Below are positions 43,196 to 57,933 of a stretch of 64,000 bases of DNA, piece after piece. The stretch is from the NCBI GenBank assembly GCA_900104855.1, contig FNSS01000001.1:3472001-3536000 (forward strand), read 5' to 3'. A program made the translations under genes and the position numbers. The number at the start of each line of letters is the position of its first letter. The first letter of the stretch is position 1. This stretch comes from Rhizobiales bacterium GAS188 (lineage in GTDB: Bacteria > Pseudomonadota > Alphaproteobacteria > Rhizobiales > Beijerinckiaceae). The notes under the pieces are model-generated. The model had not been told where the DNA came from. It saw only the letters and a list, made by a program, of their open reading frames with translations, and ran no database searches.

Positions 43196-44011
43196 CTATG
43201 GCTCGCGTCGGTCGCGCCAGGCGAGCGCCGCCTGCAGGCCCTCCTCGCGCCGGATCCGGTCGAACTCGGTGCGCCTGGGGCCGCCGGCACACTCGATGAA
43301 GATGTCGGTCTCGAGCGCCTGGGCGAGCGCGGCTCTCAGGCCCATCGCCTCGTAGCTGCGGTTGACGGCGCGCTTCGAGAGCTGGACCGCCATCGGATCG
43401 GCGGCCGCGATGCTCTCGGCGATCGCCAGCGCCTTGGCGAGCTCCTCGCCCGCCGGCACCACATGGTTGACGATGCCGAGCGCCAGGGCCCGCTCGGCGC
43501 TGAGATGGTCGTCGCCGGTGAGCAGGATCTCCTTGGCTGCCTTCGCCCCCGTCACGAAAGGCAGCAGCATGGCGACCGCGCCGGAACCGAACTTCACTTC
43601 GGGCGCACCCAGGCGCGTGCCTGAAGCCGCGACCGTGACGTCGCAGGCGAGCGACAATTCGAAGGCGCCGCCGATGCAATAGCCATGGATGGCCGCGATG
43701 GTCGGCTTCGGGCAGTCCCAGAATGCCATGATGAAATCGAAATCGGCTTCGAGCATACGACGCCACTCGGCGGGCTTGCGCTCGCCGGCCGTGGCCGCCC
43801 CGGCCTTGAGATCGAACCCGGCCGAGAAGGCACGCCCCTCGCCGCGCACCACGATCGCGAGCACATCCTCGTCCGCAGACAGCTCGGCCATCGCCCGCAT
43901 CGTCGCCTCGACCAGGGGGCCGTCGAAGGCATTGAGCACGCGCGGACGGTTGAAGGACAGAATCGCGACGCGACCGCGCCGTTCGATGCCGATCGTATCG
44001 GTGTCCGCCAT
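43196..44011 (-). CDS. Enoyl-CoA hydratase/isomerase family protein
   Basis: The 271-residue crotonase-fold protein shows RVAILSFNRPRVLNAFDGPL, the oxyanion-hole motifs RAFSAGFDLKAG and CIGGAFELSLACDVTVA, and GAPEVKFGSGAVAMLLPFVTG. The first catalytic Glu of enoyl-CoA hydratases corresponds to an E in FELSLA, and the second position has G or S in place of the usual Glu, so isomerase or another crotonase activity is possible. It lies 26 bases after the PuuB-like gene on the same strand and probably works in the same catabolic set. Confidence 0.85.
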   Translation of the reverse strand: MADTDTIGIERRGRVAILSFNRPRVLNAFDGPLVEATMRAMAELSADEDVLAIVVRGEGRAFSAGFDLKAGAATAGERKPAEWRRMLEADFDFIMAFWDCPKPTIAAIHGYCIGGAFELSLACDVTVAASGTRLGAPEVKFGSGAVAMLLPFVTGAKAAKEILLTGDDHLSAERALALGIVNHVVPAGEELAKALAIAESIAAADPMAVQLSKRAVNRSYEAMGLRAALAQALETDIFIECAGGPRRTEFDRIRREEGLQAALAWRDRREP

Positions 44012-44037
44012 CTGATGTTCCCCGTTGAATGCTGGAC

Positions 44038-45321
44038 TTAGGAAAGACCCAGCCGGTCGAGCGCCCGCATCGCCGCGACGGTAGCGGCGACACCGACGCG
44101 CTTCAGCGGCGAGAAGGGGATCGGCACGATCGGCGAAATGGGCAGCACGGGTCGATAAGCCTCGTCTTGCGTGAGGCGCGCGAGCTCGAAGCCGATCGCC
44201 GTCTGCCAGCCGATGCCGCGTCCCTGGCAGCCGATCGCCGCGACCAAGCCCGACTGCGGCCGATGCAGGCGTGGCCAATAGTCGGGATGGATCGCGACGC
44301 GACCGCCCCAGCGATGCGTGAAACCGATCCCGCGTAGCGCCGGATAGAGCTTGCCCACCTCGCGCTTGAGATGCGCCCAGTCGCTCTCGGGCCCAGGCTC
44401 GCGATAGGGGCCGCGCCCGCCCATCAGCAGGCGCCCCTCGGCATCGAGCCGCCAGTAGCGGATCACCTTGCGCGTATCGGAGAGCACCTCGCCGCCCGGC
44501 AGGATCAGCGAACGCAACGTCTCGGGTAGCGGCTCCGTCGCGATTTGCAGCGAGGTGGCGGCGACGATCGAGCGCGGCAGCTCGGGCACGAGCCCGTCCG
44601 CGTAGGCATTGGCGCACAGGAGCACCGTGCCCGCCGTGACTTGCGCTCCCGAGGCAGTCGTTGCGATCCAGGCGCCGCCTCGCCGCGCGAGCGACACGAC
44701 CCGTGACTGGCCATGGAGGCGCGCTCCCGCCGCAATCGCCGCCCGCGCGAGCTCACGCGCATAAGAGAGCGGCTGGATGCAGCCGGCACGGCGATCGACG
44801 AAGGCGCCGACATAGATGCCGGTCCCGGTCAATCGCTCCGCTTCCGCCGCCTCGACATAGGCGACATCGGCGCCGCGCCTCTGCCATTGCTCGGCGCGGG
44901 AACGTGCGAGCCCCGCTGCCCTCTGCGAATGGATGCCCTGGATCCAAGCCGTGCGACGGGCCTGCGCCTCGAGACCGAGCCGTTCGACGAGGCCGAACAC
45001 GAAATCCGCCGTACCGCCGGCGAAGCGCCACAGCCGCTCGCCGCGCTCGCGGCCGAACTTGGCTTCGATCGCGTCGGGATCGTATTTGAGGCCCGGGATG
45101 AGCTGCCCGCCATTGCGGCCGGAAGCGCCAAAGCCCGGCGTCTCGGCCTCGAGGACGACCACGTCGCCTCCGACTTCGGCGATATGAAGCGCTGCCGACA
45201 GGCCGAGATAGCCGGCGCCCACCACCAGCACCGCGGCGCGAACGCTGCCCTCGAGCGGCTCGACCACCGGGGGCGGGACGGCCGTCTCCTCCCAGAGATT
45301 AGCCAAGAGACTCACACTCAT
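44038..45321 (-). CDS. FAD-dependent oxidoreductase (PuuB/DAO family)
   Basis: The 427-residue flavoprotein has the dinucleotide-binding motif VLVVGAGYLGLSAALHIAE, then FGASGRNGGQLIPGLKY, typical for gamma-glutamylputrescine oxidase PuuB and related amine oxidases. The C-terminal part has RWGGRVAIHPDYWPRL and GCQGRGIGWQTAIGFELA, the FAD-binding closing motif. It likely oxidises an amine, giving an aldehyde, ammonia and peroxide. The PuuR-like gene lies upstream on the same strand. Its start region is a tandem array of start codons. Confidence 0.87.
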   Translation of the reverse strand: MSVSLLANLWEETAVPPPVVEPLEGSVRAAVLVVGAGYLGLSAALHIAEVGGDVVVLEAETPGFGASGRNGGQLIPGLKYDPDAIEAKFGRERGERLWRFAGGTADFVFGLVERLGLEAQARRTAWIQGIHSQRAAGLARSRAEQWQRRGADVAYVEAAEAERLTGTGIYVGAFVDRRAGCIQPLSYARELARAAIAAGARLHGQSRVVSLARRGGAWIATTASGAQVTAGTVLLCANAYADGLVPELPRSIVAATSLQIATEPLPETLRSLILPGGEVLSDTRKVIRYWRLDAEGRLLMGGRGPYREPGPESDWAHLKREVGKLYPALRGIGFTHRWGGRVAIHPDYWPRLHRPQSGLVAAIGCQGRGIGWQTAIGFELARLTQDEAYRPVLPISPIVPIPFSPLKRVGVAATVAAMRALDRLGLS

Positions 45322-45367
45322 CGAGTGACGCTCATCGGCTGACGCTCATCGACTGACGCTCATCGAT
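45316..45367 (-). repeat. 14-base tandem repeat carrying start codons
   Basis: Three units of 14 bases (45326-45339, 45340-45353, 45354-45367), preceded by a partial unit at 45316-45325, read on the minus strand as GATGAGCGTCA with variable spacers. Each supplies an ATGAG. Because 14 is not a multiple of three, the extra ATGs lie in different frames. Confidence 0.75.
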
Positions 45368-45387
45368 TGGTGTCCACCGGCCCATGC

Positions 45388-46008
45388 TCAATAGCTCGGC
45401 GGGGTGATCGCCCAGATCACTTCGGCCTCGTCGGGCCCCGGATTGCGGTAGCTGTGCGGCAAGGTGCTCTGGAAGCCGAAACTGTCTCCCGCCTCCAGCA
45501 TCACCGTCCTGCCGTCGACCCATAATTCCAGGCGGCCGCGGATGACGACGCCCGCCTCTTCGCCCGCATGCGTGTAGGGCTCCTCGCCCGACGACGCGCC
45601 CGGAGGAAACCGGCAGGACAGGAGCTCGAGGGCGCCGTTGAGGTTGGGGCTCAACAGCTCGTCGACCAGGCCGGCCGAATAATCGAGCCGCCGCCGCCGT
45701 GCGCGCCGCACCACGAGGTCGCGCTCCTCCTCCGGCACATCGCTCGCCTGGAAAAACCAGCTGATGGTGACGCCGAGCGCACGCGACACGGCATGCAGGG
45801 CCTTGATCGAGGGTGTGGCGCGGTCGCGCTCGAGCAGGCTGAGATAGCCGATCGACAAGCTGCTCGCCTCGGCGAGGCCCGTGAGCGTGAGCCCGCGCGC
45901 CTTGCGGAGCCCACGGATTTCGCTGCCGATCAGGCGAGGCTGGCTCTGATCGGGCGCCTCGACAGGGCTCGAGGCACGGTTACGGGGAAGTGAGGAGCTG
46001 CGATTCAT
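45388..46008 (-). CDS. puuR: XRE-cupin transcriptional regulator (PuuR-like)
   Basis: The 206-residue protein has an XRE helix-turn-helix (about 28-85: LRKARGLTLTGLAEASSLSI, then GYLSLLERDRATPS) and a C-terminal cupin domain (about 120-205: TRAGEEAGVVIRGRLELWVD-like and EAGDSFGFQSTLPHSYRN). This is the layout of PuuR, the putrescine-utilisation repressor. It stands next to a PuuB-like gene and faces an operon with a PotABCD-like transporter, which fits a role as repressor. The symbol is by analogy; the true ligand is unknown. Confidence 0.8.
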   Translation of the reverse strand: MNRSSSLPRNRASSPVEAPDQSQPRLIGSEIRGLRKARGLTLTGLAEASSLSIGYLSLLERDRATPSIKALHAVSRALGVTISWFFQASDVPEEERDLVVRRARRRRLDYSAGLVDELLSPNLNGALELLSCRFPPGASSGEEPYTHAGEEAGVVIRGRLELWVDGRTVMLEAGDSFGFQSTLPHSYRNPGPDEAEVIWAITPPSY

Positions 46009-46026
46009 GGGGCATCACTTTTTCTA

Positions 46027-46056
46027 TTGACAAAAATATCGTACCAAAATTTTAAT
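46027..46056 (+). promoter_or_regulatory. Promoter and possible PuuR-like operator
   Basis: TTGACA (46027-46032) and TTTAAT (46051-46056) are 18 bases apart and make a good housekeeping promoter for the plus-strand operon. The AT-rich stretch between contains AAAATAT, the start of the AAAATATAATGAACA box known for E. coli PuuR, and a loose dyad AAAAT...ATTTT. The region also serves the divergent regulator gene. Confidence 0.5.
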
Positions 46057-46085
46057 GCAAGTGAAGCCAGCAAGGATATTTGCGC

Positions 46086-47669
46086 ATGGCGGAACGATTT
46101 GATGCCATCATCATCGGGGCTGGCCATAACGGCCTGACCTGCGGCGCCTATCTGGCTCGGGCCGGACTGAAGACCCTCGTCCTCGAGCGCCGCCATATCG
46201 TCGGCGGCGCCGCGGTGACCGAAGAGGTGGTGCCGGGCTTCAAGTTCTCGGTGTTCAGCTATCTCATGAGCCTTCTGCATCCGAAGGTGATCGCCGAGCT
46301 CGAGCTTGCGAAATACGGCTATGAAGTCCTGCCAGCGACCGACATGTTCGGCCCACTGCAGGGCAAGGACTACATCGTCTTCGCCGACGATGTCGCCAAG
46401 ACGCAGGCGAGCTTCGCGCGCTTCTCCGCGAAGGACGCGGCGATCTATCCCGAGTTCGACCGCTATCTCATGGATTCGGTCAGGACCATGCGCCAGGTGC
46501 TGCTGGACACTCCGCCCGATCCCTCCTGTCGCGACTGGCGATCCTTCAAGGAGACGGCGAAATTCCTCTGGAAATACCGGCGCGTCGGCGGAAAGCTGTT
46601 CCGTCTCATCGATCTCATGACGATGAGCGCCGACGATTATCTCTCGGAGTGGTTCGAGCGTTCGGAGGTCAAGGCCGTGCTCGCCTATTACAGCGGCATC
46701 GGCACCTTCGTCGGCCCCAAGAGCCCCGGCTCCGCCTATGTGGTGATGCACCACGTCATGGGCGAGCACGCAGGGGCCGGCGGCTGGGGCTTCGTGCGCG
46801 GCGGCATGGGTTCGATCACCCAGGCCATTGCCCGCTCGGGGGCCGAGAAGGGCCTGGTCATCAAGACGGAATGCGAGGTCGCCTCGATCGACACGTCGAA
46901 TGGCCGCGCCACCGGCGTGACCTTGAGCGACGGCACCCGCTACGAGGCCGGCATCATCGCCAGCAATGTCTCGGCCAAGCTGACCTTCCTGAAGTTCCTG
47001 GACAAATCGCAACTCCCCGCGGAGCTGGTGCGCGACGTCGAGACCTATCGGACCTATTCCAGCGCCTTCAAGATCAACATCGCCTGCGAGGCGCTGCCAA
47101 AATATTCCTCGTTCGATCCGCAGGCCTGCGGCTTTGCCTATCCGACCTATGCGCATATCGGCCCGACCATCGAATATCTCGAGAGGGCCTATGACGACGC
47201 AAAATACGGCGACATGTCGCGAGAGCCCTTCGTGACGCCGGTGACGCCGAGCTTCGTCGACGACACCATCGCGCCGCCCGGCAAGCATGTCGTCCATCTC
47301 TTCGGCGGTCATGCCCCCCACACCTTGAAGCAGGGCGATTGGACGACCCGCAAGGACGAGCTGGTGCGCAACGTCATGCGCGTCATGGACGAGCACGCGC
47401 CGGGCTTCTCGAGCGGCATCATCGACATGCAGGTGCTCACCCCACCCGATATCGAGGCCAAGATCGGCTCGCCGCACGGCCATATCTTCCATGGCGAGTT
47501 GCAGATCGACCAGCTCTTCTGGGCAAGGCCCGCTCCGCACTGGGCCGATTACCGCACGCCGATCAAGGGGCTTTACCAATGCGGCTCCTCGGCGCATCCG
47601 GGCGGAGGCGTGGGCGCGGTCGTCGGCCACAACGCCGCCCGCGAGATCCTGCGGGACCGCCGCCGGTGA
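46086..47669 (+). CDS. FAD-dependent oxidoreductase of the phytoene-desaturase/PYROXD2 type
   Basis: The 527-residue protein starts with FDAIIIGAGHNGLTCGAYLA and VLERRHIVGGAAVTEE, the Rossmann and FAD motifs of phytoene-desaturase-like enzymes, and ends with GLYQCGSSAHPGGGVGAVVG, the closing FAD motif. FVRGGMGSITQAIA is also conserved. Such enzymes occur in many catabolic clusters with unknown substrates; no carotenoid gene is nearby. It is the first gene of a tightly packed operon. Its stop overlaps the next start as GTGA. Confidence 0.87.
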   Translation: MAERFDAIIIGAGHNGLTCGAYLARAGLKTLVLERRHIVGGAAVTEEVVPGFKFSVFSYLMSLLHPKVIAELELAKYGYEVLPATDMFGPLQGKDYIVFADDVAKTQASFARFSAKDAAIYPEFDRYLMDSVRTMRQVLLDTPPDPSCRDWRSFKETAKFLWKYRRVGGKLFRLIDLMTMSADDYLSEWFERSEVKAVLAYYSGIGTFVGPKSPGSAYVVMHHVMGEHAGAGGWGFVRGGMGSITQAIARSGAEKGLVIKTECEVASIDTSNGRATGVTLSDGTRYEAGIIASNVSAKLTFLKFLDKSQLPAELVRDVETYRTYSSAFKINIACEALPKYSSFDPQACGFAYPTYAHIGPTIEYLERAYDDAKYGDMSREPFVTPVTPSFVDDTIAPPGKHVVHLFGGHAPHTLKQGDWTTRKDELVRNVMRVMDEHAPGFSSGIIDMQVLTPPDIEAKIGSPHGHIFHGELQIDQLFWARPAPHWADYRTPIKGLYQCGSSAHPGGGVGAVVGHNAAREILRDRRR

Positions 47670-48535
47670 GCGCCGCCGGACGCCGACAGATGCTTCGTGG
47701 CCGAGTCCTTGGCGGCGGCATCGCGGCGCTGCTTCTCGCGCCCGCCTTCGTGATCGTCGCCGCGGGCTTCGTCGCGCCGCTCATCCGCCTCGCGGCCTTG
47801 AGCGTCTCCGCGCCGGAAGGCCCGCTTGCGGCTTATCGCGAGCTCGCCACGGTCGACGTCTACCGCACGGTGCTGCGCAACACCGTCATCCTCGCGCTCG
47901 TGGTGTCGGCCGCGAGCCTCGTCATCGGCTTCGTCCTGGCGCTCGCGCTGACCCGGCTCGAAGCCGGCTGGCGAGCGACGATCTTCGCCTGTGTGGTCCT
48001 GCCTCTTTGGGTCAGCGTCCTGGTGCGGACCTTCTCCTGGATGCTGATCCTGGAGAAGAACGGCCCGCTCAACCGCTTCCTCCTGGCCCTCGGGATTATC
48101 GATCAACCGCTGCCTCTGCTCTTCGCCTTTCCGGGCGTCGTGATCGGCATGGTGCATGTGCTCCTGCCCTATGCGGTGCTGCCGATCTACGCCGCGCTGA
48201 CCCGCATCGATCCGGCCTTGTTGCGCGCCAGCGACGGGCTCGGCGCCTCCCGCGCCACGACCTTTCGGCGCGTGCTGTTGCCGCTCTCCGCGCGCGGCCT
48301 CGCGACGGCCGCGACCTTCACCTTCCTGCTGTCGCTCGGATTTTTCGTGACGCCGGCTTTGCTCGGCGGACCCTCCGACACGACGATCCCGATGCTGATC
48401 GATTCCTTCGTCAACGAGCGCCTCGACTGGCCGCTGGCGGCGGCCGCCTCGATGACGCTGCTCGCCATGGCGCTCGCGGTGATCGGCCTCGCCGGGCGCT
48501 TCGTGCCCGTCGGCGCCTTGGCGGAGGTCGGGTGA
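47666..48535 (+). CDS. Polyamine-type ABC transporter permease (PotB-like)
   Basis: The permease of about 289 residues has six hydrophobic segments and the cytoplasmic loop LLRASDGLGASRATTFRRVL followed by LPLSARGL, typical for the spermidine/putrescine PotB group. VLPLWVSVLVRTFSWM is a family landmark. The GTG at 47666 overlaps the upstream stop; the ATG at 47690 gives a product eight residues shorter. It should pair with the next permease. Confidence 0.88.
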   Translation: MSAAGRRQMLRGRVLGGGIAALLLAPAFVIVAAGFVAPLIRLAALSVSAPEGPLAAYRELATVDVYRTVLRNTVILALVVSAASLVIGFVLALALTRLEAGWRATIFACVVLPLWVSVLVRTFSWMLILEKNGPLNRFLLALGIIDQPLPLLFAFPGVVIGMVHVLLPYAVLPIYAALTRIDPALLRASDGLGASRATTFRRVLLPLSARGLATAATFTFLLSLGFFVTPALLGGPSDTTIPMLIDSFVNERLDWPLAAAASMTLLAMALAVIGLAGRFVPVGALAEVG

Positions 48536-49308
48536 CGCCCGCCGGTGCCTGGACCAAGGCCTTCGCGGCTCTCCTCGCCGCGTTGATCGTCATCCCGGTG
48601 CTTGCGGTCGTGCCGCTCGCCTTCAGCGAGCAGAGCTTCGTGCGCCTGCCGCCGCAGGACTGGTCGCTGCGTTGGTGGCGCGGCTTCTTCGCGGATGCCT
48701 CCTGGCTGCGATCGCTGCTGACCAGCCTCGAGGTCGCGGCGCTGTCCTGCATCCTGTCGGTGGCGGCCGGAACCTCGGCAGCGCTCGGCCTGGCGCGCCT
48801 CGGGCCGCGCCTGAAAGCGCTCGCGAACGGTCTTTTCCTCGGACCGATGGTCGCGCCCGTCATCGTGCTCGCGGTCGGGCTGTACGCGCTGGCGCGCTCG
48901 GTCGGCCTCGTCGGGAGCGTGCCGGGCCTCGTGCTCGCCCATACGATGCTGGCGCTGCCTTATGCGATCTTGAATGTCGGCGTGTCGGTCGCGGCGCTCG
49001 ATCCGCGCCTCGCTCTCGCGGCGAGCGGGCTCGGGGCTGGTCCCTGGCGGGCATTTCGTACGGTGACCTTGCCGTCCATCATGCCCGGCATGCTGGGCGG
49101 CGGCATCTTCGCCTTCGTCACCTCCTTCGACGAAGTGGTGCTGGCGGTCTTCCTCGCGGGCCCGAGCGTGAAGACGCTGCCGGTACGCATCTGGGAGGAG
49201 GTTCGCGTCGAGTACACGCCCATCGTCGCCGTCGCCGCAACGATCATGATCGTGCTTGCCCTCATCGGCTCGGCCATCGGGCGGCTCGCCGCGCGGAGGA
49301 CCGCATGA
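48532..49308 (+). CDS. Polyamine-type ABC transporter permease (PotC-like)
   Basis: The 258-residue permease has six membrane segments, the N-terminal LAFSEQSFVRLPPQDWSLRW (a PotC-like part) and the loop ALAASGLGAGPWRAFRTVTLPSIMPG. FVTSFDEVVLAVFLAGP is strongly typical for this family. It overlaps both neighbours by four bases (GTGA before, ATGA after). Confidence 0.9.
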   Translation: MTPAGAWTKAFAALLAALIVIPVLAVVPLAFSEQSFVRLPPQDWSLRWWRGFFADASWLRSLLTSLEVAALSCILSVAAGTSAALGLARLGPRLKALANGLFLGPMVAPVIVLAVGLYALARSVGLVGSVPGLVLAHTMLALPYAILNVGVSVAALDPRLALAASGLGAGPWRAFRTVTLPSIMPGMLGGGIFAFVTSFDEVVLAVFLAGPSVKTLPVRIWEEVRVEYTPIVAVAATIMIVLALIGSAIGRLAARRTA

Positions 49309-50357
49309 GCGCGGTCGCCTTTCGTGGCGTCGCCAAGCGCTTCGGCGAGATCGAGGCGCTGGCCCCGCTCGATCTCGACATCGCCTCGGGCGAGTTTGTC
49401 AGCCTGCTCGGACCATCGGGCTCGGGCAAGACGACGCTCCTCAATATCTGCGCCGGCTATGTCGAGCCGACGGCGGGCTCGCTGATCGTCGCCGGGCGGG
49501 ACATCACCGCGCTGCCGGCACGCCGGCGCAATATCGGCATGGTGTTCCAGAACTACGCGCTGTTCCCGCATCTCGACGTGTTCGAGAACGTGGCCTACGG
49601 GCTACGGGTCCGCAAGGTGACTGACGTCGAGCTGAGGCGTCGCGTCGCGGAGGCGCTGCGCACCGTGCAGCTCGACGGTTTCGGCAAGCGCGCGGTGCGC
49701 AGCCTGTCGGGCGGCCAGCAGCAGCGCGTGGCGCTGGCGCGCGCCATGGTCATCGAGCCCGACATCCTCCTGATGGACGAACCGCTCGGCGCGCTCGACA
49801 AGCAGTTGCGCAAGGAGGTGCAGATCGAGATCCGGCGTATGCACGTCGCCCGTCCGCGCACGACGCTTTACGTCACGCATGATCAGGAGGAAGCTCTCGT
49901 CATGTCGGACCGCATTGCCGTGATGCGCGCCGGCCGCGTCGTCCAGCTCGGCACGGCGCAGCAGCTTTACAGCCGGCCCGCCGACAGCTTCGTTGCGCGC
50001 TTCCTCGGCGAATCGAATCTCGTCGGCGGTCGCGTTGCGGGGCTGCGGGAGCGCTGCGCGACGCTCGCAGTCGAGGGGTTCGCCGCGCCGATCGAGGGAG
50101 AAGCCGCCCAGGGGTTGCGGATGGCCGATCGCGCTTGCGCGCTCATCCGGCCGGAGAATATCCGGCCGCTCGCCGGCGGCTACCAGGCGCGCATCGTCGA
50201 GCGGATATTCCTTGGAGAGATCGTGGCGCTGCGGCTCGCTTTGCCGAGCGGCATCGAGCTCTGGTCGCGGCTCTTCAGTTCGGACGCGCCGGCCGGCGAC
50301 CAGGTCGAGATCGGCTGGGATCGGGAGCGCGTCTCGATCCTGCCGGAGGCATCGTAA
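49305..50357 (+). CDS. Polyamine-type ABC transporter ATPase (PotA-like)
   Basis: The 350-residue ATPase has Walker A GPSGSGKTT, the Q-loop MVFQNYALFPHLDVFENVAY, signature LSGGQQQRVALARAM, Walker B ILLMDEPLGALD, switch VTHDQEEA and a C-terminal TOBE regulatory domain (about 275-345). The layout matches PotA. It powers uptake through the two permeases encoded upstream. Confidence 0.92.
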   Translation: MSAVAFRGVAKRFGEIEALAPLDLDIASGEFVSLLGPSGSGKTTLLNICAGYVEPTAGSLIVAGRDITALPARRRNIGMVFQNYALFPHLDVFENVAYGLRVRKVTDVELRRRVAEALRTVQLDGFGKRAVRSLSGGQQQRVALARAMVIEPDILLMDEPLGALDKQLRKEVQIEIRRMHVARPRTTLYVTHDQEEALVMSDRIAVMRAGRVVQLGTAQQLYSRPADSFVARFLGESNLVGGRVAGLRERCATLAVEGFAAPIEGEAAQGLRMADRACALIRPENIRPLAGGYQARIVERIFLGEIVALRLALPSGIELWSRLFSSDAPAGDQVEIGWDRERVSILPEAS

Positions 50358-50371
50358 CGGAGGAAAGCACC

Positions 50372-51415
50372 ATGCTGACGAGACGATATCTGATCGCCGC
50401 CGGGGCCGCCGGCGCGATGACGGGCCTCGCGGGGCGGGCTCTGGCCGATGCGACGAAGCTCACCTTCTGCTCCTGGGGCGGAGCGCTCAGCGATCTCGAG
50501 AAATCGGCGCTGCTCGACCCCTTCGGCAAGATCAAGGGATTCGAGGTGGTGCCCGCCTCGCCGACCAATTACGCCAAGCTCAAGGCCATGGTGGAATCGG
50601 GCCCGCCCGAATGGGATCTCGTCGATGTCGGCGGGCGCTTCATCTGGCAGGGCGCCGATCTCCTCGAGACGCTCGACATGTCGCTCATCCCGAACGCCAA
50701 GGCGCTCGACCCGGGTTGGGTCGCGCCGAAAGGCATCTTCACCTCGACGGGCGCCACGGTCGTCGCCTGGAACACCAAATCCTTCCCGGAAGGTCAGGGG
50801 CCAAAATCCTGGAAGGATTTCTGGGACGTCAAAACCTTTCCCGGTCCGCGCGGCCTCTACAAGCCCTTCTACTACAACTACGAGGCGGCGTTGCTCGCTG
50901 CCGGCACGCCGCATGCGGACATCTATCCGGTCACGGAAGACAAGGTGAAGGCCGCCATGGACAAGATCCGCGAGCTGAAGCCGAATGTGAAGGTGTGGTG
51001 GACGGCCGGCGCGCAACCGCCCCAGCTGCTCTCGACCGGCGAGCTCGCCATGTCCTCGGCCTGGTCGGGGCGCGTCCTTGCCATCATGCGCGAGAATGCC
51101 CCCGTCGCCATGACCTATCAGGACGGCATCGCCTGGGGAAATGCCTGGGTCGTCCCGAAGGGCACGCCCAACGCCAAGCTCGCCATGGAGGCGATCAATT
51201 ACGCGCTCTCGCCGGAAGCACAGGCACGGCTCGTCGAATTCGGCACCTATGGGCCGGTGCTGGAGGCGGCGGCGGCGAAAGGCACGCCCGAGCAGCGCAA
51301 GCTCATGGTCACGGCGCCGGAGAACATCAAGACCATGCTCATCCTCAACGAGGAGCAGGCGGCCATCTACTCGGCGAAATACGAGAACGAGTGGAACCGC
51401 ATGCAGCTCGGCTGA
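50372..51415 (+). CDS. Polyamine-type ABC transporter substrate-binding protein (PotD/F-like)
   Basis: The 347-residue binding protein has a Tat-like signal (LTRRYLIAAGAAGAMTGLAG) and the family 1/8 fold: TKLTFCSWGGALSDLEKSAL, PPEWDLVDVGGRFIWQGADL and VKVWWTAGAQPPQLLSTGEL. PotD-type proteins bind polyamines, but this group also includes binders of other cationic or carboxylated compounds. A strong ribosome site, ACGGAGGAAAG, precedes the start. It lies between the ATPase and the acyl-CoA synthetase genes. Confidence 0.88.
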   Translation: MLTRRYLIAAGAAGAMTGLAGRALADATKLTFCSWGGALSDLEKSALLDPFGKIKGFEVVPASPTNYAKLKAMVESGPPEWDLVDVGGRFIWQGADLLETLDMSLIPNAKALDPGWVAPKGIFTSTGATVVAWNTKSFPEGQGPKSWKDFWDVKTFPGPRGLYKPFYYNYEAALLAAGTPHADIYPVTEDKVKAAMDKIRELKPNVKVWWTAGAQPPQLLSTGELAMSSAWSGRVLAIMRENAPVAMTYQDGIAWGNAWVVPKGTPNAKLAMEAINYALSPEAQARLVEFGTYGPVLEAAAAKGTPEQRKLMVTAPENIKTMLILNEEQAAIYSAKYENEWNRMQLG

Positions 51416-51426
51416 GCGGCGCCGAC

Positions 51427-53535
51427 ATGACATCCGCTATGAACGGGCAGCGCCTCGCGCCGCTGCTCGCCCCGCGCAGCATCGCTTTCGTCGGGGCGAG
51501 CGCGCGGCCGAACACGCCGGGCAACGACATGATGCGGATGATCCGCCATGGCGGCTTCACGGGCATCGTCCACGCCGTGAACCCGAACGCCGGAGAGATC
51601 GAGGGCTACCCTTGCGTCGCGACCCTCGCGGATCTCGCGGGCCCGCCCGATCTTGCCGTTCTGTCGGTCAGGAACGAGCGGCTGGAAGGGGCGCTCGCCG
51701 CGGCCATCGCGGCCGGCGCGCGCTCCGCCGTCATTTTCGCCTCCGGCCTCCTGCCGGAGGATGGCGATCCTGCGCTCGCATGGCGGCTCGCTCGCATGGC
51801 CCAACAGGCGGGCATTCCGGTTTGCGGTCCGAACTGCATGGGCTTCTACAATGAGCTCGACCGGGTCTGGGTCTGCGGCTTTCCGAGCCCGCGCCGGCCG
51901 GAGCCCGGCTCGATCGCTTTCATCGCGCATTCCGGCAGCGTCTTCGGCGCGTTGGCGCATAACGATCCGCGGCTGCGTTTCGCGCTCGCGGTCTCGCCCG
52001 GCAGCGAGGCGACGGCGACGGTCGCCGACTATATCGCCTATGCGGTCTCGCGACCTGAGGTGAAGGTGGTCGGGCTGTTCCTCGAGACCGCGCGCGATCC
52101 CACCGGCTTCGCGCGGGCGCTCGAGCTCGCGGCCGAGCGCGGTATTCCGGTGGTGGCGCTGAAGGTCGGCCGCACGGTGGCGGCCGCCGCCGCCGCGCTC
52201 ACCCATACGGGCGCGCTCGCCGGCAGCGACCTTGCCTTTGCGGCGCTCTTCGACCGTTTCGGAGTGATCCGGGTCGAGACTTTGGACGAGCTCGCCGCGA
52301 CCCTGCTGCTCCTGTCGGCCGGCCGTCGCATTGCGCCCGGCGGCCTTGTCGCGATCGGCGATTCCGGCGGCGAGCGCGAGCTGATCATCGACCTTGCTGA
52401 CCGCGCCGGTGTCCCCTTTGCGGCGATCTCGGAGACGACCAGGGCTTCGCTCGCTTCGCGGCTGGAGCCCGGACTCGAGGCTGCCAATCCGCTCGATGCC
52501 TGGGGCACGGGCGCGGATTTCGTGCCGCTTTTCACCAATTGCCTCGGCGATCTCCTCGCCGATCCCGACGCCGCGATCGGGGTGCTCAACGCCGATATCC
52601 GCGACAACTCCTACCTGCATCGGGGCTTCGCCGATGCGGCGCTCGCAGCGGCGCGCGCCTCGGACAAGATCGTCGCGGTCGCGACCAATTACACGCAAGT
52701 CCGTCACGACGAGCTAGCGGCCGAGCTGACGCTCGCGGGCGTGCCCGTGCTCGACGGCACGGTGAACGCGCTCGCGGCGGTGCGCGGCGCCTTCGCGCAC
52801 CGGGATTTTCAGGCGCGGCCCGCCGATCCTCCGCCATTGCCGCCGATCGCGCGCGCATCCGATCGCGAAGCGGCGGGCGCGATGTTGCGCGGGGCTTCCG
52901 GTGCGCTCGACGAGGCGGTGAGCCTCCGGCTGCTGGAAGCCTGGGGCGTGCCAACCATCCCGCATATCCTGGTCGCAAGCCTCGGAGAGGCTCGCGCCGC
53001 GGCGGCGAAGCTCGGCTACCCCGTCGCCTGCAAGACGGCGGAGCCCGGCATCCTGCACAAATCCGATGTCGGCGGGGTGCGGCTCGACCTTGCAGACGAC
53101 CACGCCCTCCGCGAAGCCTATGGGGATTTGGTACTGAGGCTCGGCCCGCGCGCCCTGATTGCGTCCATGGCGGGGCGCGGCGTCGAATTGTCGCTCGGCA
53201 TGATCCGCGATCCGCAATTCGGTCCGATCGTGACCGTCGGCGCGGGCGGCACGCTGGTCGAGCTGTTGGATGATCGGCGCGCCGCGCTCGCGCCGTTCGG
53301 AAAGGCGACGGCACGGCGGCTGCTCGATGGCCTCAAGCTCAGGCGATTGCTCGATGGCTATCGCGGCTCGCGCCCTGTCGACATGGACAGGCTCGCCGAG
53401 ATTGTGGCGCGCTTCTCGGTGCTGGCGGCGGAGCTCGGCGGGCTGATCGCCGAGATCGACGTCAACCCGCTCATTGCCACCGAGGAGATCCTCGCCCTCG
53501 ACGCCCTCATCGTCGCGAAGCCCGGAGCTGCGTGA
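51427..53535 (+). CDS. Acyl-CoA synthetase, ADP-forming type (ACD fusion)
   Basis: The 702-residue protein fuses a CoA-binding domain (about 10-130: LLAPRSIAFVGASARPNTPG), two succinyl-CoA-ligase-like domains (about 150-450: GSIAFIAHSGSVFGALA, then LTHTGALAGSD with the conserved His) and a C-terminal ATP-grasp domain (about 480-695: CKTAEPGILHKSDVGGVRLD). It should make an acyl-CoA from an acid with ATP. It starts 11 bases after the binding protein gene and its stop overlaps the acyl-CoA dehydrogenase start, so it belongs to the same operon. Confidence 0.9.
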   Translation: MTSAMNGQRLAPLLAPRSIAFVGASARPNTPGNDMMRMIRHGGFTGIVHAVNPNAGEIEGYPCVATLADLAGPPDLAVLSVRNERLEGALAAAIAAGARSAVIFASGLLPEDGDPALAWRLARMAQQAGIPVCGPNCMGFYNELDRVWVCGFPSPRRPEPGSIAFIAHSGSVFGALAHNDPRLRFALAVSPGSEATATVADYIAYAVSRPEVKVVGLFLETARDPTGFARALELAAERGIPVVALKVGRTVAAAAAALTHTGALAGSDLAFAALFDRFGVIRVETLDELAATLLLLSAGRRIAPGGLVAIGDSGGERELIIDLADRAGVPFAAISETTRASLASRLEPGLEAANPLDAWGTGADFVPLFTNCLGDLLADPDAAIGVLNADIRDNSYLHRGFADAALAAARASDKIVAVATNYTQVRHDELAAELTLAGVPVLDGTVNALAAVRGAFAHRDFQARPADPPPLPPIARASDREAAGAMLRGASGALDEAVSLRLLEAWGVPTIPHILVASLGEARAAAAKLGYPVACKTAEPGILHKSDVGGVRLDLADDHALREAYGDLVLRLGPRALIASMAGRGVELSLGMIRDPQFGPIVTVGAGGTLVELLDDRRAALAPFGKATARRLLDGLKLRRLLDGYRGSRPVDMDRLAEIVARFSVLAAELGGLIAEIDVNPLIATEEILALDALIVAKPGAA

Positions 53536-54704
53536 TGGACCTTGCTCTACCTCCCGAGGCGCAGGCCTGGCAGCGTCGCGCCAAGACCTTCGCCGAAGAG
53601 CATTTGTTTCCGCATGAAGTCGAGCTCGAGATGCAGGGCGAGCTACCGGCTGCGACCCTCGATCGCCTGCGCCGCGCCGTGCTGGAGCACGGTCTCAACG
53701 GCATCAATCATGCGAAGGATGTCGGGGGGCAGGGCTGCTCGCAGCTCGAATTGACCCTGATCGGCGAGGAACTGGGCAAGGCGACGGGCGCGCTCTGGGC
53801 GATCGTTCCCCATCCGGCCGTGGCGCTGAAGCATGGAACGCGCCGGCAGATCGACGCCTATCTGCGGCCGAGCTGCCTGATGGAGCGGCGCGCCTACGTC
53901 GCCGTCACCGAGCCCGATGCCGGCTCGGATCCGCGCATGGTCCGCACCCGTGCCGACCGCCGCGACGGCCGCTTCGTGATCAACGGGGAAAAATGGTTCG
54001 TGACCTCGGGCGACGTCGCCGACTACATCATCCTCCACGCCAATGTCGACGGCGATGCCGACAAGCCGACCCTGTTCCTGGTCGACAAGGCGCTGCCGGG
54101 CATCCGCATCGGGCGCGAGCCCAAATTCACGCACACCTATGTGTTCGGCCATCCGGAATTCGTGTTCGAGAATGTCGAGGTCGGCGAGGATTGCGTTCTC
54201 GGCCCGATCGGCGGCGGACTCGAGTTGACGAAGGACTGGTTCGTCGAGGCGCGGCTGCAGATCGCAGCCAGCACCCTTGGCGCCGCGATCCGCGCTTTCG
54301 AGCTCGCCAATGCCTGGGCGGGGGAGCGCCGCCAGTTCGGCCGCGCCATTCGCGATTTCCAGGCGATCGAGTTCATGCTCGCCGACATGGCGGTCGAGAT
54401 CATGGCGACGAAGAGCCTCGCCTATCGCATCTCCTGCGAGATCGACAGCGGCCTCGACCGCAAGCTTGTCCATGCGCGGGCGAGCGCGCTGAAGCTGCAG
54501 GCGTCCGAGATGGCCGGCCGCGTGCTCGACAAAGCGGTGCAAATCTTCGGCGGCCGCGGCTATATGCGGGAGAACCCGGTCGAGCGGCTGAACCGCGAGG
54601 TGCGCGTCGACCGCATTTGGGAAGGCACCTCGGAGATCCAGCGGGTGATCATCGGCGGCCAGTTGCGCAAGCGCGGAACCGCCATTTTCACCGGCTGGCG
54701 CTGA
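53535..54704 (+). CDS. Acyl-CoA dehydrogenase
   Basis: The 389-residue flavoprotein has the N-terminal helical domain, the middle FAD domain (AYVAVTEPDAGSDPRMVRTR, then GEKWFVTSGDVADYIIL) and the C-terminal domain (IFGGRGYMRENPVERLNREV followed by IWEGTSEIQRVIIGG with the catalytic glutamate). It oxidises an acyl-CoA to the enoyl-CoA, the step after CoA activation by the upstream enzyme. The ATG at 53535 shares one base with the upstream stop; a GTG at 53532 is possible. Confidence 0.93.
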   Translation: MDLALPPEAQAWQRRAKTFAEEHLFPHEVELEMQGELPAATLDRLRRAVLEHGLNGINHAKDVGGQGCSQLELTLIGEELGKATGALWAIVPHPAVALKHGTRRQIDAYLRPSCLMERRAYVAVTEPDAGSDPRMVRTRADRRDGRFVINGEKWFVTSGDVADYIILHANVDGDADKPTLFLVDKALPGIRIGREPKFTHTYVFGHPEFVFENVEVGEDCVLGPIGGGLELTKDWFVEARLQIAASTLGAAIRAFELANAWAGERRQFGRAIRDFQAIEFMLADMAVEIMATKSLAYRISCEIDSGLDRKLVHARASALKLQASEMAGRVLDKAVQIFGGRGYMRENPVERLNREVRVDRIWEGTSEIQRVIIGGQLRKRGTAIFTGWR

Positions 54705-54794
54705 GAATGCCGGGCGATTGCGATGCAGGCTGCGTCGAGCGGCGAACTGATTTACTCTTGCGCCCGAGAATGGGAGCAGCGTTTGGGGGAGCCG

Positions 54795-55703
54795 ATGATG
54801 ACGCTTGATTTCGCAAGGCAGACGGATCGAATCCCGGCGTCACGGCCGAGGCGGCCCGGTCCTCCGGCGCGATCGGGCCTGGTTCGGCGCGCTTATGGGA
54901 TCGTCGCGATCCTGGCCGCGACCCTGCTCGGGCTCGTGGGCGCGCGGGCCCAGACTCCGGCCGCTCCCCTGCCGGGCGTCGATGCGGCGCTGCTTGAGGA
55001 CATCGTGGTCGGCAGCCGCATCCTGGCCGAGCTCGGCGTCCTCGACGCCTTCGGGCATGTCAGCGCGCGTCATCCCACCAATCCCAATCGCTTCATCATG
55101 TCGCGCTCGCTCGCGCCCGCCCTCGTCACCGCCGACGACATCATGGAGTTCGATCTCGACGGCAACCCGGTCGATGCGCGCGGGCGCGCCGTGTTCCTGG
55201 AACGCTTCATCCATAGCGAAATCTACAAGGCGCGCCCGGACGTGATGTCGGTGGTCCACACGCATTCGCCCGGCGTCATTCCGTTCGGCGTCAGCCGGGT
55301 GCCGTTGCGGCCCATGTATCACAACCCTGCCTTCCTCGGAGCCGGCGTGCCGGTGTTCGACATCCGCACCGAATTCGGCGAAACCGACATGCTGGTGCGC
55401 AACAAGGTGATCGGCAAGGCCCTGGCGCAGACGCTCGGCGACAAGCCCGTGGCGCTGATGCGCGGCCATGGCGATGTGGCGGTCGGACCATCGGTGCATG
55501 TCGCCGTGTTCCGCGCCTATTACACCGACGTCAACGCGCGGCTGCAGGCGCAGGCCATCGCGCTCGGCGGCGAGGTGAACTATCTCACCCCGGAAGAAGC
55601 CGCCAAGGCCGACGCGGTCAATCTGCAAGTGCTCGACCGGGTCTGGAACCTGTGGAAGATGCACATCGTCCCGCAGCTCGCGAAGGGAAGCGACCAGCGC
55701 TGA
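54795..55703 (+). CDS. Exported class II aldolase/adducin-fold protein
   Basis: The 302-residue protein has a basic N-terminus and a hydrophobic segment (GIVAILAATLLGLVGARAQ) that looks like a signal peptide, followed by a class II aldolase domain. Metal ligands are visible in VVHTHSPGVIPFG and ALMRGHGDVAVG, and the catalytic Glu/His region has LGAGVPVFDIRTEFGETDML. Most members are cytoplasmic aldolases or epimerases, so export is unusual. I use ATG 54795 with GGGGGA upstream; ATG 54798 is equally good. It may be transcribed with the operon before it (gap about 90 bases). Confidence 0.8.
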   Translation: MMTLDFARQTDRIPASRPRRPGPPARSGLVRRAYGIVAILAATLLGLVGARAQTPAAPLPGVDAALLEDIVVGSRILAELGVLDAFGHVSARHPTNPNRFIMSRSLAPALVTADDIMEFDLDGNPVDARGRAVFLERFIHSEIYKARPDVMSVVHTHSPGVIPFGVSRVPLRPMYHNPAFLGAGVPVFDIRTEFGETDMLVRNKVIGKALAQTLGDKPVALMRGHGDVAVGPSVHVAVFRAYYTDVNARLQAQAIALGGEVNYLTPEEAAKADAVNLQVLDRVWNLWKMHIVPQLAKGSDQR

Positions 55704-55970: not shown

Positions 55971-56906
55971 ATGCCCTCACTGACCATCCGGCACGTCACG
56001 ACCTATCGCTACCGGAAACCGGTGGCCTTTGGCGAGCACCGCATGATGCTTCGCCCACGCGACTCCCATGATCAAAGGGTGATCGAGGCGAGAATCGAGA
56101 TCAGCCCGGAGCCGGTAAGCCTGCGCTTCGTTCAGGACGCATTCGGCAATCATGTGGGGATCGCACGGTTTTCGCGCCGCTCGAAAGAGCTGTGCTTCGA
56201 GAGCGTCGTCTGTCTCGAGCATTCGCCCTCGGACGCCGCCAGCCTCGATCTCGAGGAGGCCGCAAAGTCCTTTCCGGTCAACTATAGCGCCGACGAGATG
56301 CCGGACCTCGCCCACTGCATCGAACGCCATCGACCCGATCCGGGCAACGAGGTCGGCCGCTGGGTTCAGCAATTCCTGCCTGTCGGCGGGTCGATCAGCC
56401 CATTCGAGCTTCTCACCCGGCTTTCGCAGGGTATCCATCGAGGCTTCGTCTACCGGCGGCGCGAGGCGAAGGGAATCCAGGAGCCGGTGGAGACGCTCCT
56501 GCTCGGCCATGGCAGCTGCCGCGATTTCGCTTTGCTGATGATCGAGGCGGCGCGCTCGCTCGGTCTCGCGGCGCGCTTTGCCTCCGGTTATCTCACCATC
56601 CCTATCGACGACCCCGACGAGCCCGCAGACAGTTCGGCTCGCGGCTCGACGCATGCCTGGGCGCAAATCTATGTGCCGGGTGCCGGCTGGATCGATTTCG
56701 ACCCCACCAGCGGCAGTGTCGGCAAGGCGGGTCTCGTCACCGTCGCGGTCGTGCGTGATCCGCACCACGCGACCCCGCTGCATGGCACCTTCATCGGATC
56801 TCCGTCGGACCATCTCGGCATGGAGGTGCAAGTGCGCGTCACCTCCGCTGCGCGGGGCCCGATAGGGGTCGCGCGCCAACGTTCCAAATCTCTGCAATTC
56901 GCCTGA
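55971..56906 (+). CDS. Transglutaminase-like cysteine-protease-fold protein
   Basis: The 311-residue protein has an N-terminal beta domain (SLTIRHVTTYRYRKPVAFGE, HRMMLRPRDSHDQR) and a transglutaminase core (about 150-260). The catalytic Cys is in LLGHGSCRDFALLMIEAAR, the His in STHAWAQIY and the Asp in GWIDFDPT, so the triad is complete. Bacterial members are often peptidases or amidases of unknown target, with no evidence here of cross-linking. A second such gene follows 220 bases later. Confidence 0.87.
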   Translation: MPSLTIRHVTTYRYRKPVAFGEHRMMLRPRDSHDQRVIEARIEISPEPVSLRFVQDAFGNHVGIARFSRRSKELCFESVVCLEHSPSDAASLDLEEAAKSFPVNYSADEMPDLAHCIERHRPDPGNEVGRWVQQFLPVGGSISPFELLTRLSQGIHRGFVYRRREAKGIQEPVETLLLGHGSCRDFALLMIEAARSLGLAARFASGYLTIPIDDPDEPADSSARGSTHAWAQIYVPGAGWIDFDPTSGSVGKAGLVTVAVVRDPHHATPLHGTFIGSPSDHLGMEVQVRVTSAARGPIGVARQRSKSLQFA

Positions 56907-57126
56907 TCGACGTCGCGACGCCGACGCTGTAGGTTGGCGAGACGCATCGACATTCGTCGGATCGAGCATCCGGAGCCGGGACTTCGATGTCGGCACCCTC
57001 GCCCAAGCAATCTGCCGCTCGAGGGGCTGATGCCGCCTCGCCGATGGCGCCTCGAACCGTCGCACTGCACCCATTGATGGCGGGGGTTTATTGGCCATCG
57101 GGGCTTCGTGAAAACAGGCATGTCGA

Positions 57127-57933
57127 ATGAAGATTCGTGTGGGCTACGAGATGATCTACGATTTCCCGCAACCCACGCCCATGATCATGGTGCTCGGCAC
57201 GCATTTCACCCGGGCGTCCGATGTCATCGTGCCCGACCACCTGACCACCAGCCCTTCGGTGCCGATCTCTCCTTATCGCGACGTCTTCGGCAATTGGTGC
57301 AGCCGCATCGTCGCTCCCGCCGGCCGCATGCGCCTGTCGGGCGATGGCGTCGTTCGCGATAGCGGCCAGCCGGACGTGGTCGTGCCTTCGGCTTCCCAGC
57401 ATGCGGTGGAGGATTTGCCACCGGACACGCTCAACTACCTCCTCGGCAGTCGCTATTGCGAGACCGACCGCATGTCCGACGTCGCCTGGAGCCTGTTCGA
57501 AAAATCGTCACCGGGATGGCCGCGCGTCCAGGCGATCTGCGATTTCGTGCATCGCCATATCGCCTTCGGTTACGAGCATGCGCGCGCCACCATGACGTCC
57601 TTCGAGGTCTACAATGAGGGCAAGGGTGTGTGCCGCGACTATGCGCACCTCGCCATCACCTTCTGTCGCTGCATGAACATTCCGGCGCGCTACTGCACCG
57701 GCTATCTCGGGGATATCGGCATGCCGCCGCCCTATGGCCCCATGGATTTCGCCGGCTGGTTCGAGGCCTATCTGGGTGGGCGCTGGTACACATTCGACGC
57801 GCGCAACAACATGCCGCGCATAGGCCGCGTGCTGATCGCTCAAGGGCGCGATGCAGCGGACGTGCCGATCACCCATACGTTCGGCGCCAACACGCTGGTC
57901 AGCTTCAAGGTCTGGACGGACGAGGTGAGCTAG
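57127..57933 (+). CDS. Transglutaminase-like protein lacking the usual catalytic His
   Basis: The 268-residue protein has the same two-part plan: KIRVGYEMIYDFPQPTPMI and ISPYRDVFGNWCSRIV at the N-terminus, then the core with Cys in NEGKGVCRDYAHLAI and Asp in GRWYTFDARNNMPR. At the site where HAWxE is expected it has FAGWFEAYLGG, so the His is missing. The DARNN sequence also lacks a neighbouring His that I recall in relatives (DARHN). It may be inactive, or use another His. It lies between the first transglutaminase and the GYD gene. Confidence 0.85.
   Translation: MKIRVGYEMIYDFPQPTPMIMVLGTHFTRASDVIVPDHLTTSPSVPISPYRDVFGNWCSRIVAPAGRMRLSGDGVVRDSGQPDVVVPSASQHAVEDLPPDTLNYLLGSRYCETDRMSDVAWSLFEKSSPGWPRVQAICDFVHRHIAFGYEHARATMTSFEVYNEGKGVCRDYAHLAITFCRCMNIPARYCTGYLGDIGMPPPYGPMDFAGWFEAYLGGRWYTFDARNNMPRIGRVLIAQGRDAADVPITHTFGANTLVSFKVWTDEVS

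Follow-up and report, generated by a model that had tools for sequence, protein, structure and literature searches.

Which compound does a bacterium import and break down when a transporter, a coenzyme A (CoA) ligase, an acyl-CoA dehydrogenase, a crotonase and two flavin oxidases are encoded side by side? We asked this of ten neighbouring genes at 43196-54704 of a 64,000-nucleotide stretch of the genome of Rhizobiales bacterium GAS188 (9.09 Mb, 3 contigs); the whole stretch, positions 3,472,001 to 3,536,000 of contig FNSS01000001.1, is here called the window. The block has the look of a genuine pathway that takes up a small carboxylic acid and degrades it. Our favoured reading, to which we give a probability of about 0.4, is that the ten genes work as a single inducible unit, and that the acid they degrade carries a non-primary amine, N-methylated or substituted in some other way. 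The likeliest candidates are N-methylated omega-amino acids of the gamma-butyrobetaine, dimethylaminobutyrate or delta-valerobetaine class. It builds on the observed conservation of a core of genes, on changes in the pocket of the binding protein, on catalytic motifs and on genomic partners. An earlier sequence-only reading had proposed a new pathway here, in which an amine or amine-linked acid is taken up, loses its amine and is then joined to CoA. That idea is partly supported and stands in outline, with uptake, substrate class and step order revised; we too find a catabolic unit that is equipped with a transporter and a regulator and with steps for CoA activation and beta-oxidation.

All the genes proposed for the block lie at or very near the positions predicted for them, and the family of every block protein is supported by Pfam and NCBIfam. 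Three genes are divergent on the minus strand; the remaining seven form the plus arm. In the following list, NCBIfam scores are given before, and their cut-offs after, the slash.

43196..44011, minus strand: ECH, the crotonase-fold gene, a probable enoyl-CoA hydratase; Pfam ECH_1 140 bits (query minus its first two residues); start ATG at 44011
44038..45321, minus strand: DAO, an FAD amine or amino-acid oxidase of the DAO type; Pfam DAO 194.8 bits, NCBIfam AmaA 284.6/600 bits
45388..46008, minus strand: REG, the regulator, helix-turn-helix plus cupin, PuuR-like; Pfam HTH_3 and Cupin_2, PuuR model 75.7/211 bits
46027..46056, plus strand: sigma-70-like promoter, TTGACA-18-TTTAAT, read by eye in the divergent gap
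46086..47669, plus strand: FAD, an FAD oxidoreductase of the CrtI/phytoene-desaturase type; Pfam Amino_oxidase/NAD_binding_8, CrtO 272.9/1000 bits, crtI_fam 114/238 bits
47666..48535, plus strand: ABC permease 1, PotB/PotH type; BPD_transp_1, PotH 152/489 bits
48532..49308, plus strand: ABC permease 2, PotC type; BPD_transp_1, PotC 136/326 bits
49305..50357, plus strand: ABC ATPase, PotA type; PotA 331/482 bits, ABC_tran, TOBE_2
50372..51415, plus strand: SBP, the binding protein, of the gamma-aminobutyrate (GABA)/opine family by PDB relatives and pocket comparison
51427..53535, plus strand: ACS, the ADP-forming acyl-CoA synthetase, one chain; CoA_binding_2, Succ_CoA_lig and ATP-grasp_5, phospho-histidine 260, DddX-like Trp359
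53532..54704, plus strand: ACAD, the acyl-CoA dehydrogenase; Acyl-CoA_dh domains; start GTG 53532 or ATG 53535

Intergenic distances along the plus arm are -4, -4, -4, +14, +11 and -4 bases; most junctions had been described as overlapping, and 4 of 6 are. The divergent gap between REG and FAD measures 77 bases. By eye, the TTGACAAA core also stands upstream of FAD, in an AT-rich region, in the related loci L010, L011, L013, L153, L188 and L189, and not in L110. The G+C content of the block is 0.68, against 0.656 in the remainder of the window.

None of the ten proteins reached a curated NCBIfam cut-off among the models shown (25 or fewer for each), and for the transporter this includes PotB (149/348 bits) and PotD (38/582 bits) beside the PotA and PotC models listed above. 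The names PuuR, PuuB and Pot therefore hold only as family-level likeness. The Puu pathway itself, known from the E. coli puu genes, shares a PuuR-like regulator and a DAO-family oxidase with the block. We rejected it, in agreement with the mismatch already seen by the sequence-only reading: no gamma-glutamyl ligase or hydrolase is present among the ten proteins, and the PuuR model was far from its cut-off. The block lacks an aldehyde dehydrogenase as well, and has ABC uptake, a CoA ligase, ACAD and ECH instead.

Conservation of the block

Block genes were compared by tblastn in 28 of 64 listed loci and in loci from further genomes; the 36 omitted loci were 23 from Thermococcales and others from other distant holders. 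In this comparison the core behaved as a unit. A later table has 39 loci outside the window with ACS at 45% or above, their genes carrying BLAST labels (L017, being the same contig as L074, is uncounted). Its counts are of non-independent events: L015 and L016 look near-identical, and several genomes share a genus. All ten genes occur in 4 of the 39 loci (L010, from Methylocapsa sp. S129, L110, L188 and L189), and in L110 they stand in one row on a single strand. Stella vacuolata has nine of the ten. The pair of SBP and ACS is present in 14 of the 39 loci, 13 of which also have ACAD; the single locus without it, L114, stops at a contig end. Across 14 chosen block loci, the identity of each gene to its window copy tracks that of ACS (r 0.93-0.99, 6-14 points per gene), so the association of the block is more than chance.

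Not all parts are equally tied to this core. L193 joins the transporter, ACS and ACAD with a DAO and has no FAD; the same three parts occur in L075 and L190, where block-type FAD, DAO and ECH are all missing (L075 has a 29% DAO-like match 11 kb away); and ECH-ACS-ACAD sets without a transporter occur in L015/L016, L112 and L192. The looser parts, FAD, DAO and REG, come and go, and the transporter and ACS, with or without ACAD, stay together. Conservation across genomes, which the sequence-only reading had named as a check, was thus confirmed for the transporter with ACS (and ACAD), with FAD proving scattered in part and DAO and REG variable. The arrangement in L075, L190 and L193 implies that CoA is probably attached to the imported acid itself, which speaks against the earlier proposal that amine removal precedes CoA activation.

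The core is kept together but is patchily distributed in scattered proteobacteria. Including the host, ACS was found in 4 of 41 relatives (E<=1e-100), 22 of 385 genomes of the class (E<=1e-140) and 9 of 397 genomes of the order (E<=1e-160). Identity to the window genes is 81-92% for all ten genes of Methylocapsa S129, compared with 67-83% for the seven found in L074, from a genome of the same genus as the host. This difference would fit horizontal transfer.

Binding pocket and CoA enzymes

SBP belongs to the Pf622/Atu4243 sequence family (E 2e-51 and 1e-43), with PotD-type chains far lower, and its relatives of known structure include 4i1d, the GABA sensors 9d57 and 6dgv, MotA and Atu4243 (E 3e-54 to 1e-43). 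Its N-terminus, MLTRRYLIAAG, is Tat-like by eye. The GABA site of 9D57 is given as W9, T13, F100, Y102, W202, R205, D228 and Y264, with D228 bonding the amino group (PMC12999171). By alignment, the corresponding residues of the window SBP are W35, L39, S125, G127, W231, R234, N257 and Y293. Block SBPs therefore retain the pocket Trp, Trp, Arg and Tyr that they share with the GABA/opine proteins Atu4243, Pf622 and MotA, and differ from these in having Ser or Ala at position 100, Gly at position 102, a new Trp255 and, in place of the Asp that grips the amino group, Asn; they further show Tyr168 and Tyr170. The Asn (Asn257) is present in 14/14 distinct block SBPs (11 in alignment A1 plus those of L197, L198 and L200; the SBPs of L199 and L075 are one gene). 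In 25 paralogues, namely those with a fetched locus among 57 listed in five genomes, the D228 position holds D in 15, E in 5, G in 2, S in 2, T in 1 and N in none, the Arg being kept in all; the three SBPs of a second FAD locus, described below, have Gly there.

From the chemistry of the site, the pocket Arg would hold a carboxylate. As judged from these residues, the ligand probably offers a carboxylate to the old Arg clamp and no primary ammonium to the old acid, within a wider, aromatic-lined site. Loss of the ammonium-gripping acid argues against polyamines or simple GABA.

This bears on an amine-first order, in which a polyamine-related or amine-linked acid (GABA, 5-aminovalerate or a gamma-glutamyl amine) would be deaminated and the resulting acid then activated with CoA. 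We presume that the P. aeruginosa binding proteins for GABA and 5-aminovalerate are of the same family as SBP. The PuuR-like regulator, the PuuB/AmaA-type DAO, the Pot-type transporter and the aminotransferases of the sister clusters described below all favour such an order, as does the reported binding of GABA and 5-aminovalerate by P. aeruginosa proteins (PMC11113362). Against it stand the missing ammonium-binding acid in all 14 distinct block SBPs, the survival of the transporter-ACS-ACAD set in L075 and L190, where FAD and DAO of the block type are missing, and the lack of an aldehyde dehydrogenase among the block genes, and we regard it as quite unlikely.

ACS has the CoA-binding, Succ_CoA_lig and ATP-grasp_5 domains and the phospho-histidine. 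Its best match of known structure is 9y43, a 3-hydroxypropionate CoA ligase (269.6 bits, two swapped stretches), followed by DddX, 7cm9 (264.5 bits, one full-length stretch, residues 16-701), and a 4-hydroxybutyrate CoA ligase (240 bits). DddX, of the same one-chain ADP-forming family, is an ATP-dependent lyase of dimethylsulfoniopropionate (DMSP) with His292, a cation-pi Trp391 and a proposed base, Glu432 (PMC8163506). His292 aligns with H260 of ACS and Trp391 with W359; Glu432 falls on Ser395, in a placement made uncertain by nearby gaps, and a constant Glu is absent from this stretch among block ACS members. The apparent lack of a Glu432 equivalent would suggest that ACS is a synthetase, not a lyase.

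Could ACS nevertheless be a DddX-type DMSP lyase, yielding acryloyl-CoA for ACAD or ECH to process? Among the solved relatives of ACS that align over the full length in a single stretch, DddX scores best; the phospho-histidine and the cation-pi Trp are kept, and ABC-type betaine/DMSP transporters can occur near DddX (PMC8163506). This sulfonium analogue is highly improbable, given the apparent loss of the base, amine oxidases that would be superfluous, and the absence among the ten of any dddB/dddC-like alcohol or aldehyde dehydrogenase; the partner genes differ from those of DddX.

ACAD has three acyl-CoA dehydrogenase domains and scores best on the models for acryloyl-CoA reductase (225/640 bits) and FadE (196/600 bits), with 149.5/470 bits for glutaryl-CoA dehydrogenase. 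Relatives of known structure include 1ukw, CarC (185.8 bits) and medium-chain acyl-CoA dehydrogenases. The Glu of its WEGT motif, the usual catalytic residue, is kept in 23 of 24 homologues. In ECH, both catalytic Glu positions, presumably the E144/E164-type pair, are kept in 16/16 aligned sequences, that of the window included.

The flavin oxidases and the route as a whole

Genomes with FAD tend to have ACS too: among the same 385 genomes of the class, FAD (E<=1e-130) was found in 19 and ACS in 22, and 13 hold both, where about 1.1 would be expected if they were independent (simple arithmetic that ignores kinship). Outside the window, we surveyed 36 loci that carry a homologue of FAD at 39% or more, counting BLAST-labelled partners within 6.5 kb. 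These partners were a CoA ligase in 19 of the 36, a transporter in 10, the THF-dependent aminomethyltransferase-family protein GcvT (THF, tetrahydrofolate) in 8, an aldehyde dehydrogenase-like gene in 8 (a loose label), DAO in 7, a class III aminotransferase in 6, a Rieske gene in 4 and a class II aldolase in 2. GcvT was confirmed by Pfam/NCBIfam only in L012, L110, L077 and L117, and the Rieske label only in L153 and L163.

About 0.8 GcvT neighbours per 36 loci would be expected by chance, from 13 GcvT-type matches in 9.09 Mb or about 2% per 15 kb, against the 8 seen; this is rough arithmetic on non-independent loci. In L110, GcvT adjoins REG; in L012 it lies over 6.5 kb away from FAD and overlaps ACAD at its end. 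In a sister arrangement, aminotransferase, FAD, FAD2 and GcvT stand close to an ACS. The four genes are contiguous in L076, L077 and L116, and the grouping is looser in L117, L121 and L122; in L179 it comes together with Pot-type transporter genes and two Rieske-like genes.

Human genetics provides a further hint. FAD is presumably akin to human PYROXD2, a protein that has strong metabolite associations and is not known to have a settled substrate. In human plasma, a PYROXD2 missense variant explains 50% of the variance of N6-methyllysine, 48% of that of dimethyllysine and 21% of that of N-methylpipecolate (PMC8109053). A literature search on PYROXD2 with amine oxidase found nothing on its substrate in titles and the opening lines of abstracts. 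Taken together, GcvT, the betaine-type Rieske genes and the PYROXD2 genetics (if the presumed kinship holds) point to N-demethylation by the FAD family. On chemical reasoning, a quaternary ammonium is not expected as the target of a flavin amine oxidase, so FAD more likely acts directly on an amine with one or two methyl groups, or on a tertiary product left by a preceding step.

The best model for DAO is the L-pipecolate oxidase AmaA. This raises the possibility of a cyclic N-methyl amino acid, such as N-methylpipecolate or homostachydrine, which FAD would demethylate and an AmaA-like DAO would open, leaving the glutaryl or adipyl end to the CoA enzymes. The N-methylpipecolate association of PYROXD2 (PMC8109053), if the presumed kinship is right, agrees with this. 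We consider it very unlikely: DAO is far under the AmaA cut-off, ACAD scores low on the glutaryl-CoA dehydrogenase model, and an aminoadipate gene is absent among the ten.

N-demethylation by the FAD family combined with direct CoA activation suggests an N-methylated omega-amino acid. The substrate class, the order of steps and the roles of both oxidases and of the regulator are inferred. In the favoured reading, SBP would take the carboxylate in its Arg clamp, the Trp/Tyr-lined wider site having no acid for an NH3+ group, and the ABC transporter would bring the acid into the cell. ACS, by analogy with its family, would form the CoA thioester through the phospho-histidine. ACAD could then put in a 2,3-double bond and ECH hydrate it. 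FAD and DAO would oxidatively strip the N-methyl or amine part, by demethylation or deamination, and in some lineages a GcvT protein may capture the one-carbon unit on tetrahydrofolate. The PuuR-like REG would repress the divergent promoter until the substrate is present.

Parts of this scheme have precedents. Gamma-butyrobetaine, the best-known compound of its class, is broken down by a route of S. meliloti and soil strain HK4, in which the S. meliloti BcoAB ligates it to CoA, and the gut bbu system degrades it in a CoA-dependent way, its acyl-CoA dehydrogenase-like BbuA releasing trimethylamine (PMC8364193, PMC2131755). CoA activation of a GABA-like betaine and an enzyme of the acyl-CoA dehydrogenase family are thus common ground. 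Bbu uses CoA transferases, a BCCT-type transporter and the trimethylamine-eliminating enzyme (PMC8364193, PMC2131755), whereas the block combines ABC uptake of the Pot type with a ligase of the ADP-forming kind and has two flavin oxidases in addition. Sarcosine and dimethylglycine demethylation has in common with several relatives of the block a flavin oxidase near a THF-dependent aminomethyltransferase-family gene. It differs in that the flavoprotein here is of the CrtI type and GcvT is a separate protein, missing beside the window's block.

Several findings weigh against the favoured reading. No 3-hydroxyacyl-CoA dehydrogenase, thiolase or aldehyde dehydrogenase is found among the ten block proteins by Pfam or NCBIfam. 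Of the 13 genomes that have FAD as well as ACS, 9 have the two on different contigs or at different places, and they adjoin in only 4 (the host, G161, G239 and G265); in the L074 block, neither FAD nor REG is seen between DAO and permease 1; and 7 of the 36 FAD loci have no marked partner inside 6.5 kb. The host's best match to the L012 GcvT is only 38%, with none near the block. Trp359 occurs in almost all members of the ACS subfamily, also where the locus has no amine enzymes (it is missing from the two host paralogues compared), and being so general it may give only a weak hint of a cationic ACS substrate. The change of Asp to Asn in SBP would fit a nitrogen-free ligand too. The structure predicted for FAD (pLDDT 85.6) is nearest in fold to carotenoid desaturases, then to renalase, putrescine oxidase and monoamine oxidase among the folds listed, a comparison that does not separate an amine oxidase from a desaturase. 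Lastly, in L163 (4981-12779) a FAD/DAO pair lies among four anthranilate-dioxygenase-like Rieske genes (450-460/750 bits), in a locus that also carries PPK2 and an ACS/ACAD/ATPase/ECH set, and this company favours an aromatic compound.

Indeed, an aromatic or alicyclic acid, for example an aryl-propionate or a phenylpropanoid amine, might be imported, activated with CoA, dehydrogenated and hydrated, with the flavin enzymes desaturating or oxidizing the ring or side chain. ADP-forming feruloyl-CoA synthetases exist. The SBP pocket, enlarged and lined by Y168, Y170 and W255, the oxygenases of L163, the resemblance of ACAD to the caffeyl-CoA reductase CarC and the desaturase-like fold of FAD are all in keeping with such a substrate. 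It is nonetheless unlikely in view of the GcvT and class III aminotransferase genes at FAD loci and the DAO within the block; L163 is one genome, with an ACS only 32% identical. CrtI-type carotenoid synthesis was rejected on the unmet cut-offs of crtI_fam (114/238) and CrtO (273/1000), no specific search for carotenoid genes having been made.

An extension of the favoured reading, unlikely as a whole, is that the block represents a new aerobic route by which Alphaproteobacteria, and the source of one Burkholderiales-labelled metagenome-assembled genome, would degrade dimethylamino acids or N-methylated, GABA-like betaines in a CoA-dependent way, and in which a CrtI-type flavoprotein would act as N-demethylase paired with DAO and, in some lineages, with a stand-alone GcvT. 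Literature searches, with most subscription journals outside them, found no paper on this operon or on a betaine/ADP-forming/Pot-type operon, and a search for a CrtI-type/GcvT N-demethylase found none either. Because the cassette has its own importer, a ligand screen of one protein could reveal the substrate. Should that protein bind an N-methylated amino acid, the block would add an aerobic CoA route for the kin of gamma-butyrobetaine, whose breakdown in the gut yields trimethylamine. If the substrate reading is true, it would also supply a bacterial model for a flavoprotein family with PYROXD2 as its presumed human member; and if FAD is orthologous to PYROXD2, the operon offers a testable function for an orphan enzyme.

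A second FAD locus and other neighbours

The host has a second copy of FAD, 80% identical and about 130 kb away, in L153 (C1:3376000-3395900, outside the window). Behind it come a class II aldolase and a Rieske oxygenase, the latter matching the glycine betaine monooxygenase model best (146/670 bits), and a PuuR-like regulator, 71% similar to REG, lies on its other side. The locus also contains a 5-guanidino-2-oxopentanoate decarboxylase (657.8 bits, cut-off 500), a DDAH-like hydrolase and Pot-type transporter genes, and is probably another methylated-amine or guanidino catabolic locus. The decarboxylase and DDAH genes were rejected as parts of the block, as they accompany this second FAD copy; methylated-arginine catabolism was considered owing to them, and the literature search found no paper on it. 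L176 (2-10305) is a compact twin of L153, with LysR, a Pot-type ABC transporter, two unknown genes, class II aldolase, Rieske and FAD. In Methylocapsa, two DDAH-like genes come after the block, along with a LysR gene and a Pot-type transporter, the LysR being 67% identical to that of L153 and 71% to that of L176.

In L194 (G842:C7, 4962-19590), ACAD-ECH-ACS is followed by a PuuR-like regulator, ACAD-ECH-BKACE and Pot-type transporter genes. The BKACE family cleaves dehydrocarnitine. In this single case BKACE follows an ACAD-ECH pair 40% and 35% identical to that of the block; BKACE genes are common, at least one occurring in 10 of 11 genomes, and the host's five lie away from the block.

Some smaller observations concern neighbouring genes. 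An open reading frame at 54723-55703, 18 bases past ACAD, has a hydrophobic N-terminus and reads as class II aldolase/adducin-like from its translation; it was rejected as a block member, no match being shown in any of the loci compared by tblastn. Two successive plus-strand open reading frames at 55971-57933 presumably encode transglutaminase-type proteins, to judge by reading. In L108 a 2-oxoglutarate-Fe(II) oxygenase-like gene (6656-7594) follows ACAD, and a clustered homologue occupies the same place in L107 (6515-7624). Finally, the GcvT-type matches at C1:7745179-7748703 and C2:304257-307781 of the host have the same scores and the same 2487-base spacing, and are probably a stretch duplicated between the two contigs.

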